From: Alphaproteobacteria bacterium | GTDB lineage: Bacteria > Pseudomonadota > Alphaproteobacteria > UBA8366 > Aestuariispiraceae | DNA: 64,000 nt | Direction: 5' to 3' | NCBI GenBank assembly: GCA_033344895.1 | Contig: JAWPMN010000001.1 | Span: 3,728,001-3,792,000 of the forward strand | Part shown: positions 54,750-62,147 of the stretch, piece after piece | Position numbering within the stretch: the stretch's first letter is position 1 | How the letters are laid out: each line of letters begins with the position of its first letter | Position numbers and translations under genes: made by a program | Notes under the pieces: generated by a model | Database searches by the model: none | What the model was told of the DNA's origin: nothing | What the model saw: the letters and a program-made list of their open reading frames with translations, nothing else

Positions 54750-55307
54750 ATGAGTTGGTATTGCGACTTCGCGATCGGTGATCCGGTCCATGGCGGCTAT
54801 CACGATACCGAGTACGGCGTTCCGGAACGGGATGAAGCGCGCCTTTTCGAGCGTCTGACCCTGGAAATCATGCAGGCCGGGCTGAATTGGGGCCTGATCC
54901 TGCGCAAGAGGGACGGGTTGAATCAGGCCTTTGACGGTTTCGATGTCGACACAGTCGCCGCCTATGGTGACGCGGATGTGCGGCGGCTTCTGGCAGACGA
55001 GCGCATCGTCAGGAACCGTCTGAAGGTCAATGCCGTCATATACAATGCCTGCGTATTGAAAAAGATGCGCGACAGTCACGGTGGTTTCGCGGGCTGGATC
55101 GAAACACATCACCCGCTGACCAAGGATCGCTGGATCAAGTTGTTCAAGAAGACGTTCAAATTCACCGGTGGGGAGATTACCGGTGAATTTCTGATGTCGA
55201 TCGGCTATCTGCCCGGCGCCCATCGCGAGGACTGCCCGGCCTACCGTCGGATTGCCGCTCTGAGCCCGCCATGGATGCAGCAAGGCGCGGAGTTCTACGC
55301 GACCTGA
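54750..55307 (+). CDS. tag: DNA-3-methyladenine glycosylase I family protein
   Basis: 185 residues. Tag features: WYCDFAIGDPVHGGYHDTEYG, the catalytic-site segment LFERLTLEIMQAGLNWGLIL, and PAYRRIAAL near the end. Zinc ligands of Tag are Cys near the N-terminus, two His and a late Cys; candidates here are Cys5, His14 and His18, and Cys/His in GAHREDCPAY. The enzyme removes 3-methyladenine from alkylated DNA. Its 3' end overlaps the convergent hydrolase gene by 13 bases. Confidence 0.9.
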   Translation: MSWYCDFAIGDPVHGGYHDTEYGVPERDEARLFERLTLEIMQAGLNWGLILRKRDGLNQAFDGFDVDTVAAYGDADVRRLLADERIVRNRLKVNAVIYNACVLKKMRDSHGGFAGWIETHHPLTKDRWIKLFKKTFKFTGGEITGEFLMSIGYLPGAHREDCPAYRRIAALSPPWMQQGAEFYAT

Positions 55308-56524
55308 CTTCCACTTTCGGCGCGGGATGCCAGTTCCACAGTTTTTGTGTAAAGAACACTTTCCCGGTCGGCCATGGCTTCGACGGCTGTGAAATGGTTC
55401 AGTCCGGGCAGTTCCAGATAGGTGGCCTGGACACCCTGACCAAGCAGATGATCAACATAGTCGCGGCTCTGGCGGCGGAATTCGTCGCTTTCCGCGCCGC
55501 CGACCGCCGCGATGATCGGGCCGGGGGAGACCACCGGATACCGGATCGGGCTGATTTCCCGGGCCTGTTCCAAAGTCAGGCGCAGGGCCTTGTTGAGACC
55601 GGTATGGACCAGCGGCTCGACCTCAAACAGGCCGGAGATCGCAACCGTTCCCTTGATCAGATCGCGCGGCAGGTCCGTATGGACCGAGGTCCAATCCGTC
55701 GCCGCCAGCATGCCGACCAGATGGCCGCCGGCGGAATGGCCGGAAATGGTAATCCAGTCTCGATCATACCCGTATTTGTCCGCCTCCTGATAGAGGCAGG
55801 CGAGCGCGTCGCGGCAATCTGTGACAATGCCGCCGACCGTGGCGGGCGGGCAGAGAGGATAGTTGAGTACGGCGACGGCGATTCCGGCTTCGACCAGTCC
55901 GGCCCCGAACTGCCCGTTGTCCCGCTTGTCCAGGGCCTGCCAGTAACCGCCGTGAATATAGACATGCAGCGGCGGACGATCTTCTCCGCCGGAACTCGGC
56001 AGAAAAATGTCGATTGCTCGGGCGTCGTCGGCGCCATAGTTCAGCACCGCGCTTCTCTTGGCCTGATTGGCTGTTCCTTCGCGTCGCCACCGCGCCATGA
56101 TATCCGGCGCCTCCGGGACCGTTGCACGAGGGCTGTACTGCCGGTTCAGGTCGCTGCGGGTGTATCCGGCAAAGACAATCTCATCGGATGCGGGGGGAAT
56201 CACCGCCTGCGCCTGCAGACGAATTGCGCCGTCCGATTCGATCAGGGCGACCAGACCCGAATTGCCGGCCAGCGCCTCGCGATAGAGCAGATCCATGTCT
56301 GTCAGCGCGGCCATGAATGCCTCGGTGTCCGGAACCGCAATTGTCAGGCGTTCGATATGCGCGGGCGCCGCGCCCTTCGAGGCCAGGTCGCGCCCAAGAG
56401 CCGCCGCGGCACCGAGGAACCCACCCTTTAAATCCGTCTCGTTGGAAGTTCCTTCGGCCCAGACAGACACGCCGGTTTCTGCCGATATGTCCGGTGCCGG
56501 TTTCCCGCGCCATTCGATCTGCAT
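55295..56524 (-). CDS. Rid-like domain fused to formamidase-like alpha/beta hydrolase
   Basis: 409 residues. Residues about 15-112 resemble a Rid/YjgF domain: FLGAAAALGRDLASKGAAPA, HIERLTIAVPDTEAFMAALT and a last strand IRLQAQAVIP. From about 125 an alpha/beta hydrolase follows with HGGYWQALDK (HGGxW, a hallmark of kynurenine formamidases), nucleophile Ser264 in GHSAGGHL, Asp347 in GGAESDEF and His377 in GLNHF. The full triad suggests an active esterase/amidase, perhaps on formyl- or carbamoyl-amino compounds. The fusion to a Rid domain is unusual. It faces an M20 amidohydrolase gene 45 bases upstream in the same direction. Rid assignment is by pattern only. Confidence 0.75.
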   Translation of the reverse strand: MQIEWRGKPAPDISAETGVSVWAEGTSNETDLKGGFLGAAAALGRDLASKGAAPAHIERLTIAVPDTEAFMAALTDMDLLYREALAGNSGLVALIESDGAIRLQAQAVIPPASDEIVFAGYTRSDLNRQYSPRATVPEAPDIMARWRREGTANQAKRSAVLNYGADDARAIDIFLPSSGGEDRPPLHVYIHGGYWQALDKRDNGQFGAGLVEAGIAVAVLNYPLCPPATVGGIVTDCRDALACLYQEADKYGYDRDWITISGHSAGGHLVGMLAATDWTSVHTDLPRDLIKGTVAISGLFEVEPLVHTGLNKALRLTLEQAREISPIRYPVVSPGPIIAAVGGAESDEFRRQSRDYVDHLLGQGVQATYLELPGLNHFTAVEAMADRESVLYTKTVELASRAESGSQVA

Positions 56525-56569
56525 GTACTCGCCCTTTCCACAGGTCTTATAAAACGATGCGCGATGGAA

Positions 56570-57820
56570 TCAGACTCTCCCCGCCCGCGCCAGCATTGCC
56601 GTTGCCAATACCCGCGTTCCATCGGCCAGGTCGGACGGCGTTGCGGATTCCAGTTCATTATGGCTCAGACCGTCCCGACAGGGGACAAAGACCATTGCCG
56701 TCGGCTGGAGCGGTGCCAGATAGCAGGAATCATGCCCTGCCATCGAGAAGATATCTGCTGCGGCGATCCCGCAGCTTTCCGCGGATTGCCGCAACAACTG
56801 GACTAGGTCAGGATCGAAATTGATGGGGGGTTCCCGCTCCAGTATTCGGCTTTCGACGATCACCTGATCACGGGCCTGTTCAGCCGCGAATGCTTCAGAA
56901 ATGGCGCTTTCCATGGCTGCCAGACCGGCGGCCGTCGGATGCCGCAGATCGATTGAGAACCGGACACGGCCCGGTATCGTTTTGATGGAGTTTGGTGCGA
57001 CCGTCAGGGCGCCGACGGTACAGACACCCTGGGGCAGGTGGCTCAGCCCGATCTCTTCCAGCCTTACCACCAACCGGGCCGCGGCGGTCAGGGCGTCGCG
57101 TCGCATATCCATCGGCATCGTCCCGGCATGCCCCTCCTGCCCGGTGACCGAGACATCGTACCGAAGTTGCCCCCTGGCACCGGTAACGATGCCGACGGAT
57201 AGTCTCTGTCGCTCCAGTAATGGTCCCTGTTCGATGTGAGCCTCGAACACGCTGTCGAAACGGCGGAATCCGCAGGGCAGGTTTCCCTTCGCGCCGATGG
57301 CGGTCAACGCATCCTCGAAGCGAGTACCGGCGGAATCGACGGTGTCATAGACCGTTTCCAGTTTCATCAGGCCGGCAAACACAGCGGAACCGCCATAGGG
57401 GAAACGCGTTCCCTCCTCGTTCGTCCAGACCACCACATCGATCGGACGTCGGGTTTCGATCGCGGCGTCATTCAGTGAGCGCACGACTTCCAGGCCGGCC
57501 AGAACACCGAAGGCGCCATCGAATCTCCCGCCGGTCGGCTGGGTATCGAGGTGACTTCCCGTGCAGACGGCTTCGGCATCGGGATCAAGACCCGGACGCC
57601 GCGCAAAAATGTTTCCCGCTGCGTCGATCTCGACCTGGCATCCGGCGTCTTCGCACCATTCCTGAAAGAGGTTGCGTGCGGCGCCGTCTTCCACGGTCAG
57701 GGCCTGACGATTGACTCCGCCCTTCTGCGTCGCACCGTGTTTCGCCATTTCCATGTGGCTTTGCCACAATCTGTCAGGATTTATGGAGACGTTGCTCAAA
57801 GTGCTATAGAATTCAGGCAT
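56570..57820 (-). CDS. M20 family Zn-dependent amidohydrolase (N-carbamoyl-amino acid / allantoate type)
   Basis: 416 residues from the ATG at 57820 (TTGGGGAAAC upstream); the upstream open frame is not needed. Metal ligands: GSHLDTQPTGGRFDGAFG, TNEEGTRFPYGG, HIEQGPLLE and the C-terminal SHNELE, with HDSCYLAPLQPTAMVFVPC shared with allantoate amidohydrolases. The lid domain has GQEGHAGTMPMDMRRDAL. Enzymes of this group cut N-carbamoyl-L-amino acids, ureidopropionate or allantoate. The Rid/formamidase-like gene follows 45 bases downstream. Divergent from the PAS_5 gene. Exact substrate unknown. Confidence 0.9.
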   Translation of the reverse strand: MPEFYSTLSNVSINPDRLWQSHMEMAKHGATQKGGVNRQALTVEDGAARNLFQEWCEDAGCQVEIDAAGNIFARRPGLDPDAEAVCTGSHLDTQPTGGRFDGAFGVLAGLEVVRSLNDAAIETRRPIDVVVWTNEEGTRFPYGGSAVFAGLMKLETVYDTVDSAGTRFEDALTAIGAKGNLPCGFRRFDSVFEAHIEQGPLLERQRLSVGIVTGARGQLRYDVSVTGQEGHAGTMPMDMRRDALTAAARLVVRLEEIGLSHLPQGVCTVGALTVAPNSIKTIPGRVRFSIDLRHPTAAGLAAMESAISEAFAAEQARDQVIVESRILEREPPINFDPDLVQLLRQSAESCGIAAADIFSMAGHDSCYLAPLQPTAMVFVPCRDGLSHNELESATPSDLADGTRVLATAMLARAGRV

Positions 57821-57884: not shown

Positions 57885-58478
57885 ATGGATGGAGCAAACA
57901 ACAGGGAATTGCTGCCCGCCACCATTGCGGATGTAGCGACGGAAATCCGAAACGGAGGCTCGGCCTCCCTGGACGCCATGTTTCAGGCATGGGGCGCCCC
58001 CAATCCGTTGATCGTGTTCGATCCAGCTGAGGCCGACATGCGCGAAAGCCGGCTTGTTACCTTGCTCCGCTATTGGCACGACATGCCGCAGATAAAGGGA
58101 CTTCCGGACCATAGTGCCCTCGATCCGATCGACATCACGTCGACCCTGGGCATCGTGATGCTGCTGGAGGTTCTGCCGGAAGGGGATGATTTTCGCTACC
58201 TTATCTACGGAGAGGAAATTGCCGAGCGGTTCGGGCGTAACATGGTTGGGAAGCGGACCAGCGATATCCCGACCCAGGCGAGCGTGACGACCCTTTTCCT
58301 GGCCTGTTATCGGGTGGCAATCGACACCCGGCGGCCGATCCTGACGGAACATTCGGCGCCGCCCAAGGTTTCGGCCACGACGTGGCGCCGGCTGGTGCTG
58401 CCCCTTGCCGGCCCGACGGGCGCGGTGGAACGTTTTCTTGTCGGGAACATTCCCGGCGCCTGGCGCAAGCCCAGTTAG
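57885..58478 (+). CDS. PAS_5 domain protein
   Basis: About 197 residues from the ATG at 57885 (another ATG at 57873). The core SALDPIDITSTLGIVMLLEV, DDFRYLIYGEEIAERFGRNM and VGKRTSDI match the PAS_5 (PF07310) proteins that are abundant in alphaproteobacteria, usually without an output domain. RRLVLPLAGPTGAVERFLVG is the final strand pair. A role in sensing is assumed; none is proven. It shares the intergenic region with the M20 gene and overlaps the convergent Ldh-family gene by 4 bases. Confidence 0.82.
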   Translation: MDGANNRELLPATIADVATEIRNGGSASLDAMFQAWGAPNPLIVFDPAEADMRESRLVTLLRYWHDMPQIKGLPDHSALDPIDITSTLGIVMLLEVLPEGDDFRYLIYGEEIAERFGRNMVGKRTSDIPTQASVTTLFLACYRVAIDTRRPILTEHSAPPKVSATTWRRLVLPLAGPTGAVERFLVGNIPGAWRKPS

Positions 58479-59488
58479 CGTCCCGCCAGCTCGGTGACTG
58501 TTTCGTACAGGGATCTTGCCAATTCAATGCCCGATTCCGGGGTCTCCAGGCGTGCGCGACGGCGGCGCTGCCCGGGCAGGCGGACGCCGTCCATCGCGGT
58601 GGCCGCGGCAAACAGCTGCTCGCAATGGGCAGCCCAGTTTTCCGCATCCCCAAACCGGGACGGGTCCATGGCGACGATGATCTCTCCACCGATCGGCGGC
58701 CCGCCATCCTGATTGTCCTGGCGCCCGGCCTCAAAGGAGAATACGGAGCCGATCAACCCACCAGCCAGCAATTCGATCATCATGGCAATATTGGACCCCT
58801 TGTAACCGCCAAAGGGCAGTTGGGCCCCCTTCAGAACCTCATTGGGGTCCTCGGTCGGATTGCCGTTCGCGTCGATGCCGGTGCCGATCGGAACCTTCTT
58901 GCCGTCCCGGGCGTGGATCATGACATCGCCGCGTGCCATCGCGGCGGATGCCTGATCGAAGACATAGGGATCCTTGCCCGGCCGCGGCCAGGAAAATGCC
59001 ATCGGATTTGTCCCGAAGAAGGGGCGGGTCCCGCCGGTCGGCGCCACCATGGGGGAGGCCTGGGTGAAGGCCAGGGCGGACAGACCGGCCTCGGCAAGGG
59101 TTTCCACTTCCGGCCACAGGGCGGCGAAATGATAAATGTCGACGAGGCCCAGGGCTGCGATACCCTGGCTGCGCGCCCGTTCCGCGAGGGCCGGAAGCCC
59201 GGTGTCGAGGGCAAGCGGCGCGAACCCGCCGTCCCCGTCGACACGCAGAATCCCCGGGGCAATATCATGCAGTTTTGGCGATGCCGATCCATTGACCTTG
59301 CCACTGCGCAGGGATGCGCAATAGCCCGGCAGGCGGAACAAGCCGTGACTGGCGCAGCGATCCTGCTCGGCCCGCAGCATGATCTGAGTCACGGCTTCGG
59401 CATTGGCGCTGTCCGCGCCATGCGCGTCAAGGGCGGCAAGGGATAGTTCCCGGGCTTCGGACAGGCTCAGATTGACGGTCTCGGACAT
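58475..59488 (-). CDS. Ldh family (malate/L-lactate/ureidoglycolate dehydrogenase-like) oxidoreductase
   Basis: 337 residues. The family (PF02615) is shown by LRAEQDRCASHGLFRLPGYC with the conserved SHG, VDIYHFAALWPEVETLAEAG, GTRPFFGTNPMAFSWPRPG and LPFGGYKGSNIAMMIELLAG. Members use NAD(P)H on 2-oxo acids or cyclic imines: malate, lactate, ureidoglycolate (AllD) or piperideine-2-carboxylate. Among these I lean to the imino acid reductase group because of the N-terminal pattern, but this is weak. A ureidoglycolate role would fit an M20 allantoate-type enzyme next door. Confidence 0.87.
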   Translation of the reverse strand: MSETVNLSLSEARELSLAALDAHGADSANAEAVTQIMLRAEQDRCASHGLFRLPGYCASLRSGKVNGSASPKLHDIAPGILRVDGDGGFAPLALDTGLPALAERARSQGIAALGLVDIYHFAALWPEVETLAEAGLSALAFTQASPMVAPTGGTRPFFGTNPMAFSWPRPGKDPYVFDQASAAMARGDVMIHARDGKKVPIGTGIDANGNPTEDPNEVLKGAQLPFGGYKGSNIAMMIELLAGGLIGSVFSFEAGRQDNQDGGPPIGGEIIVAMDPSRFGDAENWAAHCEQLFAAATAMDGVRLPGQRRRRARLETPESGIELARSLYETVTELAGR

Positions 59489-59543: not shown

Positions 59544-60449
59544 TCAGGGCTTGAGTTGCGCTTCCGTCGGCGCGTCGGGCACCTTGCGGGCCCGTTCGCG
59601 ATAGATGGTATAGAGACCGCTGCCCACCACGATCGCGCCGCCGACGATGGTCCAGAAATCCGGCAGGTTGCCGAAGACCAGGTAGCCCATGATGGTGGCC
59701 CAGACCAGAAGGGTGAAATTGAACGGCTGAAGCGTGGATGCCGGCGCCAGTTCCAGCGCCTTGATCAGCAGCAGATGCCCGGTCGCGCCGGTCACGGACA
59801 ACAGGGCAAGCCAGCGCCAGGCCTCTGGCGTCGGTTCCACCCAATAGAATGGACCGATCAGAGTCAGGACCGCGGCCCCGACAACCGCCATGTAGAGCAG
59901 GGAGGTGTTGGTGCCGTCGTCGCGGCTGGTGACGCGCGTGATCACGTGATAGCTGGCAAACATGACGGCAGCGGCGAGGGCGATCAGGGATTCCAGCTGA
60001 AACACGCCGGTTCCCGGACGCAGGATGATCAGGACGCCCAGGAACCCAACGATCACCGCACTCCAGCGGCGCAGCCCGACCTTCTCACCCAGGAAGACCG
60101 CCGACATCGCGGTGACGATGAGCGGGAAGCTGGCGAACAGGGCATGGGTTTCGGCCAGGCTGAGAACCCGGACCGCCATGACGAAGATTCCGATTTCGGC
60201 CACGATGATCAGGGAGCGCACGACCTGTAGCCAGGGACGCTTCGCCTTCACCGCAGTCTTCAACGGCGTGTGCCAGCTGCTCAGTGCCATCGCGAAGACG
60301 GCAAAGAACAGATAGCGCACCCAGATGATCTGCGGCGTCGCATAAGTCTGCGCCAGATGCTTTGTGACGGCATCCTGGCACGCGAAGATGAATGTCGCGC
60401 CGATCAGCATCAGAATGCCGCGGCTGGTGGAGTCGAGCTTTGAGAACAT
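59544..60449 (-). CDS. DMT superfamily (EamA) transporter
   Basis: 301 residues from the ATG at 60449; the frame is open to 60629 but the first 60 codons have no membrane segment and overlap the prfC start. Two EamA repeats of five helices each: from SRGILMLIGATFIFACQDAV to VIVGFLGVLIILRPG, and from LIALAAAVMFASYHVITRV to IVGGAIVVGSGLYTIYRERA. The motif LSLAETHALFASFPLIVTAM is common in RhaT/RarD-like exporters. Inner membrane; substrate unknown, maybe an amino acid or metabolite. 55 bases upstream of the Ldh-family gene, same strand. Confidence 0.92.
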   Translation of the reverse strand: MFSKLDSTSRGILMLIGATFIFACQDAVTKHLAQTYATPQIIWVRYLFFAVFAMALSSWHTPLKTAVKAKRPWLQVVRSLIIVAEIGIFVMAVRVLSLAETHALFASFPLIVTAMSAVFLGEKVGLRRWSAVIVGFLGVLIILRPGTGVFQLESLIALAAAVMFASYHVITRVTSRDDGTNTSLLYMAVVGAAVLTLIGPFYWVEPTPEAWRWLALLSVTGATGHLLLIKALELAPASTLQPFNFTLLVWATIMGYLVFGNLPDFWTIVGGAIVVGSGLYTIYRERARKVPDAPTEAQLKP

Positions 60450-60572
60450 GAACTGCCCATACGCCGGAACCGGTTCGGACGCAATCTTTGCGGGCCTCGC
60501 TTGCGTCGCGCGGGCGCGGGGATTAGATAGGGCCGTCACCTTGATCCCGGAATTTCGGAAAGCGCCCAAACC

Positions 60573-62147
60573 ATGGCCACCCTTGCAGAGCAGGCCGCGA
60601 GCCGTCGCACATTTGCGATCATCAGCCACCCCGACGCGGGGAAGACGACGCTGACGGAAAAGCTGTTGTTACGCGGTGGCGCCATTCACCTTGCCGGGGA
60701 GGTGAAGGCCAAAGGCGACCGCCGGCGTGCGCGTTCCGACTGGATGAAGATCGAGCAGCAGCGCGGCATCTCGGTCACGACGTCGGTCATGACCTTCATT
60801 CGGGACGGCGTCTATTTCAATCTGCTCGATACGCCGGGCCACGAGGATTTTTCGGAGGATACCTACCGCACGCTGACGGCGGTCGACAGTGCCGTAATGG
60901 TGATTGACGCCGCGAAGGGCATCGAGCCGCAGACCCGCAAACTGTTCGAAGTCTGCCGACTGCGCGATATGCCGATTGCGACCTTCATCAACAAGCTGGA
61001 CCGCGAGGCTCGCGATCCTTTCGAATTGATGGATCAGATCGCCGAGGAGCTTGCGCTGGACGTTTCGCCGGTTGCCTGGCCGATCGGGTCCGGGCGGGAA
61101 TTCAAGGGCTGCTACGATCTGCTGAACGATCGCGTCCTGCTGATGGGGGAGGACCGCACGGAATCGGTCGAGGTCGACGGTCTGGACGACCCGAAACTGG
61201 ACGACCTGATTCCGGCCGAACAGTTGGAACAACTGCGTGAGGAAGCGGAACTCGCCCGGGAAGCCTGTCCGAAATTCGACGTGGAGGCGTATCTGGAAGG
61301 GACCATGACGCCGGTCTATTTCGGCAGCGCCCTGCGCAATTTCGGGGTCGGTCATCTGCTCTCCGGCATCAGCCTGCATTCGCCGCCGCCGCGCCCCCTG
61401 CCGACGGACAAGCGCGAAATCGATCCGAAGGAAGAGAAGGTCACCGGTTTTGTCTTCAAGGTTCAGGCGAACATGGACCCGAACCACCGGGATCGCATCG
61501 CCTTCGTTCGATTGGTCTCCGGCAAGTTCAAGCGGGGCATGAAGCTGAAGCATGTCCGGTCCGGCAAGCCGATGGCGATCTACAATCCCATCATGTTCTT
61601 TGCCCAGGACCGGGAAATCGCGGACGAGGCCTATCCGGGCGACATTATCGGTGTGCCGAACCACGGTACGCTGCGTGTGGGGGATACGTTGAGCGAGGCA
61701 GAGGAAGTGCGCTTCACGGGTATTCCGAACTTTGCGCCAGAGATCCTGCGCCGTGTGCGGCTGGACGATCCGATGAAGGGCAAGCATCTGAAAAAGGCGC
61801 TCGAAAGCCTGGCGGAGGAGGGGGTTACCCAGGTCTTCAAGCCGGAACTGGGCGCCAACTGGATCGTCGGTGTCGTCGGGCAACTTCAGCTTGATGTGCT
61901 GCAAACCCGGATCGAAGCCGAATACGGGATCAACGTCACGCTGGAGCCCGCACCCTTCGAAACGGCCCGATGGGTCGCTGCCGACGACCCGGCGGAACTG
62001 GATCGATTCACAAGCTCGATTCGCAGTGCGATGTCGGTGGATCGCGATGGCGCACCCGTCTTCCTGGCGCGGAACTATTGGGAACTGAACCACCAGACTC
62101 AGAACAATCCGAAAATTCGGTTCTCCAAGACAAGGGAACGGTCGTAA
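60573..62147 (+). CDS. prfC: Peptide chain release factor 3
   Basis: 524 residues. GTPase motifs: G1 SHPDAGKTTLTEKLLL, G2/G3 region GISVTTSVMTF and DTPGHEDFSEDTYRTLTAVD, G4 NKLD. The presence of FSEDTYRTL after DTPGHED is diagnostic for RF3 against EF-G. Domain II and the C-terminal domain (GVVGQLQLDVLQTRIEAEYG) are complete. RF3 uses GTP to recycle RF1 and RF2 after termination. Divergent from the EamA gene, 123 bases between starts. Confidence 0.96.
   Translation: MATLAEQAASRRTFAIISHPDAGKTTLTEKLLLRGGAIHLAGEVKAKGDRRRARSDWMKIEQQRGISVTTSVMTFIRDGVYFNLLDTPGHEDFSEDTYRTLTAVDSAVMVIDAAKGIEPQTRKLFEVCRLRDMPIATFINKLDREARDPFELMDQIAEELALDVSPVAWPIGSGREFKGCYDLLNDRVLLMGEDRTESVEVDGLDDPKLDDLIPAEQLEQLREEAELAREACPKFDVEAYLEGTMTPVYFGSALRNFGVGHLLSGISLHSPPPRPLPTDKREIDPKEEKVTGFVFKVQANMDPNHRDRIAFVRLVSGKFKRGMKLKHVRSGKPMAIYNPIMFFAQDREIADEAYPGDIIGVPNHGTLRVGDTLSEAEEVRFTGIPNFAPEILRRVRLDDPMKGKHLKKALESLAEEGVTQVFKPELGANWIVGVVGQLQLDVLQTRIEAEYGINVTLEPAPFETARWVAADDPAELDRFTSSIRSAMSVDRDGAPVFLARNYWELNHQTQNNPKIRFSKTRERS

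Follow-up and report, generated by a model that had tools for sequence, protein, structure and literature searches.

Introduction

As far as the accessible text of two papers goes, imine hydrolysis by plant and Salmonella RidA is nearly abolished when Arg105 (numbering of Salmonella RidA and E. coli TdcF) is changed, about 10% of RidA proteins carry Ser at this place, and the subfamilies Rid4–Rid7, which are without Arg105, are called mysterious (PMC4433059), while Rids without Arg105 had undetectable deaminase activity and RutC R104A was inactive (PMC8113886). The fusions described in the accessible part of PMC4433059 are Rid–Rid tandems. Here we describe a gene that joins a Rid-fold domain to an alpha/beta hydrolase. 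It lies in a stretch of 64,000 nucleotides (the window) from an alphaproteobacterium of the family Aestuariispiraceae (assembly GCA_033344895.1, contig JAWPMN010000001.1, positions 3,728,001 to 3,792,000).

The fused domain resembles the Arg105-less Rids in fold, sequence homology and loss of Arg105 as in Rid4–Rid7 (PMC4433059, accessible part), but differs from them in being followed C-terminally by a hydrolase and in having lost both the canonical glutamate (Glu120) and the Arg loop. The hydrolase half shares HGGYW, GHSAGGH, an acid, a His and the fold with kynurenine formamidase-like hydrolases (4e11/4e15, 9n8r, 2pbl), whereas the window protein, with its putative function, has an extra N-terminal domain and a Glu where the formamidases have Asp. 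RutD of the uracil pathway likewise has the alpha/beta hydrolase fold. In the accessible account of the Rut pathway, RutD is encoded in one operon with the Rid protein RutC, around enamine and carbamate chemistry (PMC8113886); in contrast to the window protein, RutC and RutD are products of separate genes, and RutC has the Arg and is active. Rid and hydrolase genes of the same two families as in the window also occur adjacent but separate at three loci (L061, L056, L196), two of which (L061 and L196) carry in addition flavoenzyme and coenzyme A (CoA) ligase genes of a probable 2-aminobenzoyl-CoA cluster; the three hydrolases are not the nearest relatives of the fusion clade. No Rid–alpha/beta hydrolase fusion is named in the titles or abstracts of the papers listed by searches of the openly licensed literature (CC0, CC BY, CC BY-SA).

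The fusion gene and its Rid half

The gene is located on the minus strand at 55295..56524 and encodes 409 residues; an earlier sequence-only reading of the window had given exactly these coordinates and this strand. A Shine-Dalgarno-like GGAAAGGG (56532..56539, minus strand) lies 7 bases upstream of the ATG. As judged from the open reading frame (ORF), alignments and a full-length model, a Rid-fold domain (residues 1–112; 56189..56524, minus strand) is followed by the hydrolase from about residue 115 to residue 402, with the kynurenine-formamidase/hormone-sensitive-lipase-like domain itself assigned to residues 123–402 (55319..56158, minus strand). A frameshift or annotation artefact at the join was ruled out by a single open frame across it in 12 genomes, and the Rid–hydrolase fusion is genuine.

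Since Pfam and NCBIfam see only the hydrolase half, the Rid assignment needed tests beyond these family libraries. The Rid half of the window protein remained invisible to Pfam even at E 1, and a PDB search with a profile of the 12 fused domains returned no Rid among the best 60 of 353 matches, the top ones of these being cytochrome b562 with E 0.0036 or worse. By hhalign, the 12 fused N-terminal domains matched eight stand-alone Rids with a probability of 98.4 (E 5.4e-15) and six other Rids with 88.6 (E 2.6e-6). Fused and stand-alone Rid-type proteins can be aligned along the helix, a strand and the C-terminal strand, and one of the aligned stand-alone proteins, encoded in the genome of the window, matches PF01042 with 77 bits. 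A profile of seven stand-alone Rids, run against 4,839 ORFs, detected nine of the 12 distinct fusion proteins (E 3e-8 to 4.4e-4), the remaining three (L001, L086, L090) being unmatched even at E 10.

Structures were predicted as single chains, and the alignment used for the N-terminal domain was restricted to fusion rows and held no Rid rows. AlphaFold2 gave a b-b-a-b-a-b-b domain (a, helix; b, strand) with a predicted local distance difference test score (pLDDT) of 90.9 and a predicted template modelling score of 0.83. The best 50 Foldseek matches of this model (best E 2.7e-6) were Rid/YjgF-type by title, apart from three 1xrg chains listed as 'conserved hypothetical protein'. VIA-align reached a best Z of 10.1 over 91 residues at 2.5 A, and none of its best 50 matches was titled as a non-Rid family; the structures 1xrg, 1j7h, 2csl and 9bjv are titled merely as hypothetical or by locus name. 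Sequence homology and predicted fold both bear out the Rid-like N-terminal domain that the sequence-only reading had recognized. The check it had proposed, a comparison of the predicted structure with RidA-type folds, likewise recovered a Rid fold, and on these models the N-terminal half is a member of the Rid (YjgF/YER057c/UK114) fold family.

The classic Rid Arg had seemed absent on first inspection, and in the alignment the whole loop bearing Arg105 is missing from the fused domain. The canonical Glu is present in none of the 12 fusions (the window has Arg102 there, L092 an Asp) and in all of 45 distinct stand-alone relatives. In the latter, a count that leaves the Rid at L204 outside, the Arg105 place is taken by Met (41), Ile (2), Val (1) or Thr (1) and never by Arg, and eight other comparison Rid rows have Arg (4) or Ser (4, two of these rows being identical). 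The pair Arg82-Glu83 (56276..56281, minus strand) is invariant in 12/12 fusions, although the fused Rid domains are only 19–56% identical to that of the window. Among the 45 Arg105-less stand-alone relatives, Arg82 corresponds to Arg in 43 and Lys in two, and Glu83 to Glu or Asp in 40. Judged by eye, with AmnE itself unaligned, Glu83 lies at the place of AmnE Gln103, which the accessible part of PMC6742747 counts among the residues conserved in the subunit-interface cleft. The Rid half is catalytically stripped yet folded. The earlier suggestion of a structural relic was thus right about the lost catalytic residues, but 'relic' is too weak a word for a domain with a confident fold and under purifying selection (see below).

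The hydrolase half

Pfam assigned BD-FAE (5e-22) and Abhydrolase_3 (3.5e-16) to the hydrolase half, none of the best stretches beginning before residue 159; in NCBIfam the best stretch begins at residue 125, and the hormone-sensitive lipase equivalog NF058665 scored 157.9 bits, below its curated cut-off of 320. In the full-length model (pLDDT 90.0) the fold relatives of this half are the lipase 9n8r (Z 37.1), 2pbl (Z 34.5) and the Drosophila kynurenine formamidase structures 4e11, 4e14 and 4e15 (Z 29.2–30.0, with 30.0 for 4e15), the matches spanning 256–279 residues at 23–29% identity over the aligned core. The HGGYW oxyanion motif (residues 191–195, 55940..55954), the nucleophile Ser264 in GHSAGGH (55733..55735), Glu345 (55490..55492) and His377 (55394..55396), all on the minus strand, are invariant in 12/12 fusions.

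From the aligned sequences the catalytic acid is probably Glu345, since this residue is invariant and is matched in the alignment by the Asp within HDS of 4e11, whereas position 347 is S, P, A or E in the other aligned rows. Ser264 and His377 of the triad proposed from the window alone are therefore retained, but Asp347 gives way to Glu345. By its residues and predicted fold the hydrolase half looks intact, and its description as kynurenine-formamidase-like agrees with fold and motif set. The window's own genome (G000) holds five matches to this hydrolase, two of them (L137 and L147) distant.

Some unfused relatives of the hydrolase have surroundings of their own. At L005, L006, L009, L018, L025, L032 and L064 a GMC oxidoreductase gene lies on the same strand at a median distance of 28 bases, and some of these loci also have branched-chain-type ABC (ATP-binding cassette) transporter genes; both labels come from one scanned representative of each. 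At L145 (G008) and L146 (G007) a kynurenine-formamidase-like hydrolase forms the C-terminal end of minus-strand open frames of 905 and 1185 residues, respectively, in 3-hydroxyanthranilate dioxygenase regions. The upstream part is amidohydrolase-like by eye, and another hydrolase fusion is possible there.

Distribution, origin and selection

The fusion was found in 12 of the 14 genomes of the window's family. In a sample of 43 genomes of the order, one-frame matches reaching the N-terminal domain occurred in 6/6 genomes of the genus and 6/8 other genomes of the family, and the fusion occurred in 0/29 order genomes outside the family; three matches that seemed to enter the N-terminal domain (G022, G023, G015) were rejected, as no Rid domain was present there at E 10. 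The fused-domain profile matched 69 of 385 genomes of a class sample at E 1e-5, with three fusions, all in the family, and 58 of 398 genomes of a phylum sample at E 1e-8, with the fusion in the window's own genome only; at most 11 first-look candidates were scored per genome in these two samples, so that a much diverged fusion could escape. Outside the family, all listed matches with frames of at least 390 residues, long enough for a hydrolase too (G129, G273, G763), and six further ones with frames of 235–308 residues (G394, G043, G397, G049, G314, G169) were opened: the frames stop 0–11 residues past the Rid match in L220–L227 and at the match in L204 (G129), so none is a fusion. The view of the fusion as unusual, taken in the sequence-only reading, holds for the order, class and phylum samples, in which the fusion was found in one family only.

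Record CP051228.1 (L001), titled Mesoflavibacter (Bacteroidota), carries the closest fusion gene. Its gene order and 67–90% protein identity match the window, the same gene is found in G011 of the window's genus, and the label is probably wrong.

In the hydrolase tree the fusions form one clade with support 100/99. Three fusions labelled as unfused (L150, L151, L152) fall inside this clade, and the duplicate loci L082–L085 and L125–L131 were left out. A single clade (100/98) on a long branch was also obtained in the Rid tree for 11 of the 12 rows, FUS_L092 having been left out; this tree holds identical copies of some genes, and its bootstrap had not settled. As far as these trees go, the fusion appears to have a single origin, within one alphaproteobacterial family, and the fused domain is likely derived from an Arg105-less Rid lineage. 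The protein is a single-clade, family-restricted fusion of known domain kinds.

The ratio of nonsynonymous to synonymous substitution rates (dN/dS, NG86) was below 0.5 for both halves in all eight pairs tried, most of which are near silent-site saturation. The closest pair (L003/L004) gave 0.12 (Rid part) and 0.06 (hydrolase). Both halves are under purifying selection; across the eight pairs dN was higher in the Rid half than in the hydrolase, by a factor of 1.6 to 2.7.

Gene neighbourhood

Three further genes on the minus strand lie near the fusion in the window: an M20 hydantoinase/carbamoylase-family amidohydrolase at 56570..57820 (likely start 57820, ORF open to 57979), an Ldh_2 dehydrogenase at 58475..59488, assigned by Pfam and a structure-database match, and an EamA-family transporter at 59544..60629, assigned by Pfam and locus comparison. 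The order EamA, Ldh_2, (M20), fusion is found in 6/6 genomes of the genus, with M20 absent in G013. The closest solved relative of the Ldh_2 protein is DpkA (1wtj), a delta1-piperideine-2-carboxylate reductase (258 bits; next 141), and outside the genus the Ldh_2 gene is not beside the fusion. The M20 protein scores highest against 5thw (426 bits); of the entries whose name gives a specific reaction, the N-carbamoyl-beta-alanine amidohydrolase 8c46 (362 bits) is the closest.

An M20 gene adjoins the fusion at 9/12 loci, on the same strand in seven and divergent in two, and was present anywhere in the flanks (up to 8 kb, some contigs shorter) of 2/76 unfused-hydrolase loci. Genome-wide, 13 of the 14 family genomes have an M20 match at E 1e-80; as these include both genomes without the fusion, M20 presence alone does not track it. 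Dihydropyrimidinase is over cut-off in 9/14 family genomes and not in G000, G011, G013, G007 and G008, so the fusion-linked M20 protein is not simply a uracil-pathway enzyme. It could be one in G009, G010 and G012, each of which has no other M20 match at E 1e-80. A dihydropyrimidinase-type gene is found 3–8 kb from other M20 relatives (L228 in G001, L230 in G003, L231 in G006), the arrangement that a beta-ureidopropionase would be expected to show.

Tryptophan catabolism in fusion genomes

No tryptophan gene was recognized among the scanned neighbours of the fusion in the window. G000 has tryptophan 2,3-dioxygenase and kynureninase and no KynB match. Nine proteins were scanned at its tryptophan dioxygenase and 3-hydroxyanthranilate dioxygenase loci; six belong to other families and three, beside the tryptophan dioxygenase, had no match at 1e-8, and a formamidase may be among these. 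Across the 12 fusion genomes, tryptophan dioxygenase is over cut-off in seven (below cut-off or missing in five), kynureninase in seven and KynB in one, G002, where it adjoins the dioxygenase. Tryptophan dioxygenase and kynureninase are both missing over cut-off in G007, G009, G010 and G012 (91–99% complete), and N-formylkynurenine can therefore not be the general substrate; it may be a substrate in some fusion genomes. A gene of a tryptophan-dioxygenase cluster was found near 6/76 unfused-hydrolase loci, one of the six (L049) having been Pfam-scanned. These unfused hydrolases (L031, L039, L049, L050, L058, L059) are probably true kynurenine formamidases, and in the hydrolase tree the dioxygenase-linked enzymes form a clade separate from the fusions.

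Stand-alone Arg105-less Rids

The stand-alone lineage with Met for Arg105 (41/45) carries a conserved Y-R-E/D motif. We examined 40 of its loci, mostly the better matches of the class sample (69 genomes matched) rather than all, on stretches of 9.4–19.7 kb, so that the misses include cut-off flanks as well as L217, which has no Rid gene in the ORF set. A flavoenzyme gene was present at 16 loci (L183, L185, L195–L198, L200, L201, L204, L205, L209–L211, L214, L215, L219), a CoA ligase gene at 18 and at least one of the two at 21; in a background of 80 hydrolase loci the counts were one and four. The flavoenzyme has two domains, FAD_binding_3 and Oxidored_FMN, and scores over the cut-off of NF006101, named bifunctional salicylyl-CoA 5-hydroxylase/oxidoreductase in NCBIfam; this family is over cut-off in 14/14 family genomes and 1/29 other genomes of the order. 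We take its architecture to be that of 2-aminobenzoyl-CoA monooxygenase/reductase, the source paper for such clusters reportedly being Schuhle 2001. The pathway name is accordingly a probable one: the stand-alone Arg-less Rids at 21/40 loci probably lie in 2-aminobenzoyl-CoA (anthranilate) clusters. L115 (G001) and L061 belong with the same Rid group near such probable clusters.

The stand-alone protein is a candidate deaminase of an enamine-CoA intermediate; by our reasoning Arg105 could be dispensable there, the substrate carboxylate being bound to CoA and none being free. In the openly licensed literature no paper joining aminobenzoyl-CoA with RidA or YjgF was found. Flavoenzyme and CoA ligase genes are both absent from all 11 fusion loci outside the window, which suggests that the fusion itself does not work in the CoA pathway.

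Discussion

The reading that we favour, with a probability of about 0.5, is that of an active small-molecule amidase/esterase for which a pseudo-Rid domain serves as scaffold, mostly encoded beside an M20 carbamoylase-type gene. A Rid protein, probably of the Arg105-less lineage, would have been fused once to a kynurenine-formamidase-like serine hydrolase. Its Rid half, a putative pseudo-enzyme, would retain the oligomer-forming fold and tie the hydrolases into oligomers, probably trimers; it may still offer a putative ligand cleft marked by the invariant Arg82-Glu83. Catalysis would be left to the hydrolase alone, whose substrate would be a small amino compound with an N-acyl group (probably N-formyl or N-carbamoyl) or else a related ester, and the hydrolase and the neighbouring M20 amidohydrolase would work in one catabolic route. 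Several observations weigh against this scenario. The invariance of Arg82-Glu83 in so divergent a domain hints that the domain binds a ligand or takes part in catalysis and is more than a scaffold. At 3/12 loci (G013, G002, G006) the fusion has no M20 gene next to it, and the M20 genes beside fusions do not form one clade in their tree, in which deep support is weak. In G002 the fusion is instead the last gene of an operon that includes 3-hydroxyanthranilate 3,4-dioxygenase; its other members are a Rid protein, a muconate-semialdehyde-type dehydrogenase, an Amidohydro_2 protein and a branched-chain-type binding protein, and the permease and ATPase genes in between were assigned by their size and position. 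The long branch and the unsettled bootstrap make derivation from the Arg-less lineage likely rather than certain. In most dN/dS pairs the silent sites are close to saturation, and a second method, YN00, yielded no value for 5/8 pairs.

The place of the G002 fusion in a 3-hydroxyanthranilate operon would suit a kynurenine formamidase of tryptophan catabolism with an idle Rid domain, as would the kynurenine formamidase being the third-best solved relative by sequence and fold, the absence of a KynB match from G000, which has both tryptophan enzymes, and the dioxygenase-cluster genes near six unfused hydrolases. G002, however, already has KynB next to its dioxygenase, four fusion genomes are without both tryptophan enzymes and five without the dioxygenase, the window shows no tryptophan gene among the scanned neighbours, and the dioxygenase-linked hydrolases belong to another clade, so that we consider this explanation unlikely, if the strongest of the rivals. 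The coupling of amide cleavage with enamine removal in one chain, as the sequence-only reading had proposed, would mean that the hydrolase cleaves an N-acyl or N-carbamoyl enamine and that the enamine so released is deaminated on the spot in the Rid cleft, with Arg82/Glu83 replacing Arg105/Glu120. Such a bifunctional enzyme could account for the invariant pair (Arg82 also in 43/45 relatives), for Glu83 at the by-eye place of Gln103 in the unaligned AmnE (PMC6742747, accessible part), for a carbamoylase-type M20 neighbour and for the DpkA-like imine reductase found nearby within the genus, and it has a parallel in RutC/RutD, a Rid and a second protein of one operon (PMC8113886, accessible part). 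The neighbours thus partly favour the chemistry, but the proposal is weakened by the loss of both the Arg105 loop and the canonical Glu, and Arg-less Rids tested so far in the accessible accounts were without deaminase activity (PMC4433059, PMC8113886); we regard it as possible yet rather improbable and do not favour it over the scaffold reading.

A folded, constrained domain that has lost its catalytic residues and has a conserved pair where the cleft is expected would also fit a putative ligand-sensing regulatory domain that gates the hydrolase; we think this improbable to a similar degree. A neutral relic, kept since its removal would expose hydrolase surface, could explain the higher dN of the Rid half, but dN/dS well below 1, the confident fold, the invariant residues and the presence of the Rid half in all 12 fusion genomes make this very unlikely. 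Equally doubtful is the idea that the Met-for-Arg105 lineage deaminates 2-amino-5-oxocyclohex-1-ene-1-carbonyl-CoA and that in the fusion the cleft with its Arg82-Glu83 has come to act on what its own hydrolase releases, as a one-chain deacylase-deaminase; the NCBIfam label of salicylyl-CoA 5-hydroxylase on the flavoenzyme family that names the pathway weakens the CoA-enamine part.

The scaffold reading, if true, would mean that in this family a metabolite-repair enzyme has turned into a structural domain. For the Arg-less Rids, an Arg-less Rid tied to an intact amidase/esterase, together with stand-alone relatives clustered with genes of a probable pathway in which an enamine-CoA intermediate is known, offers concrete candidate substrates and partners.

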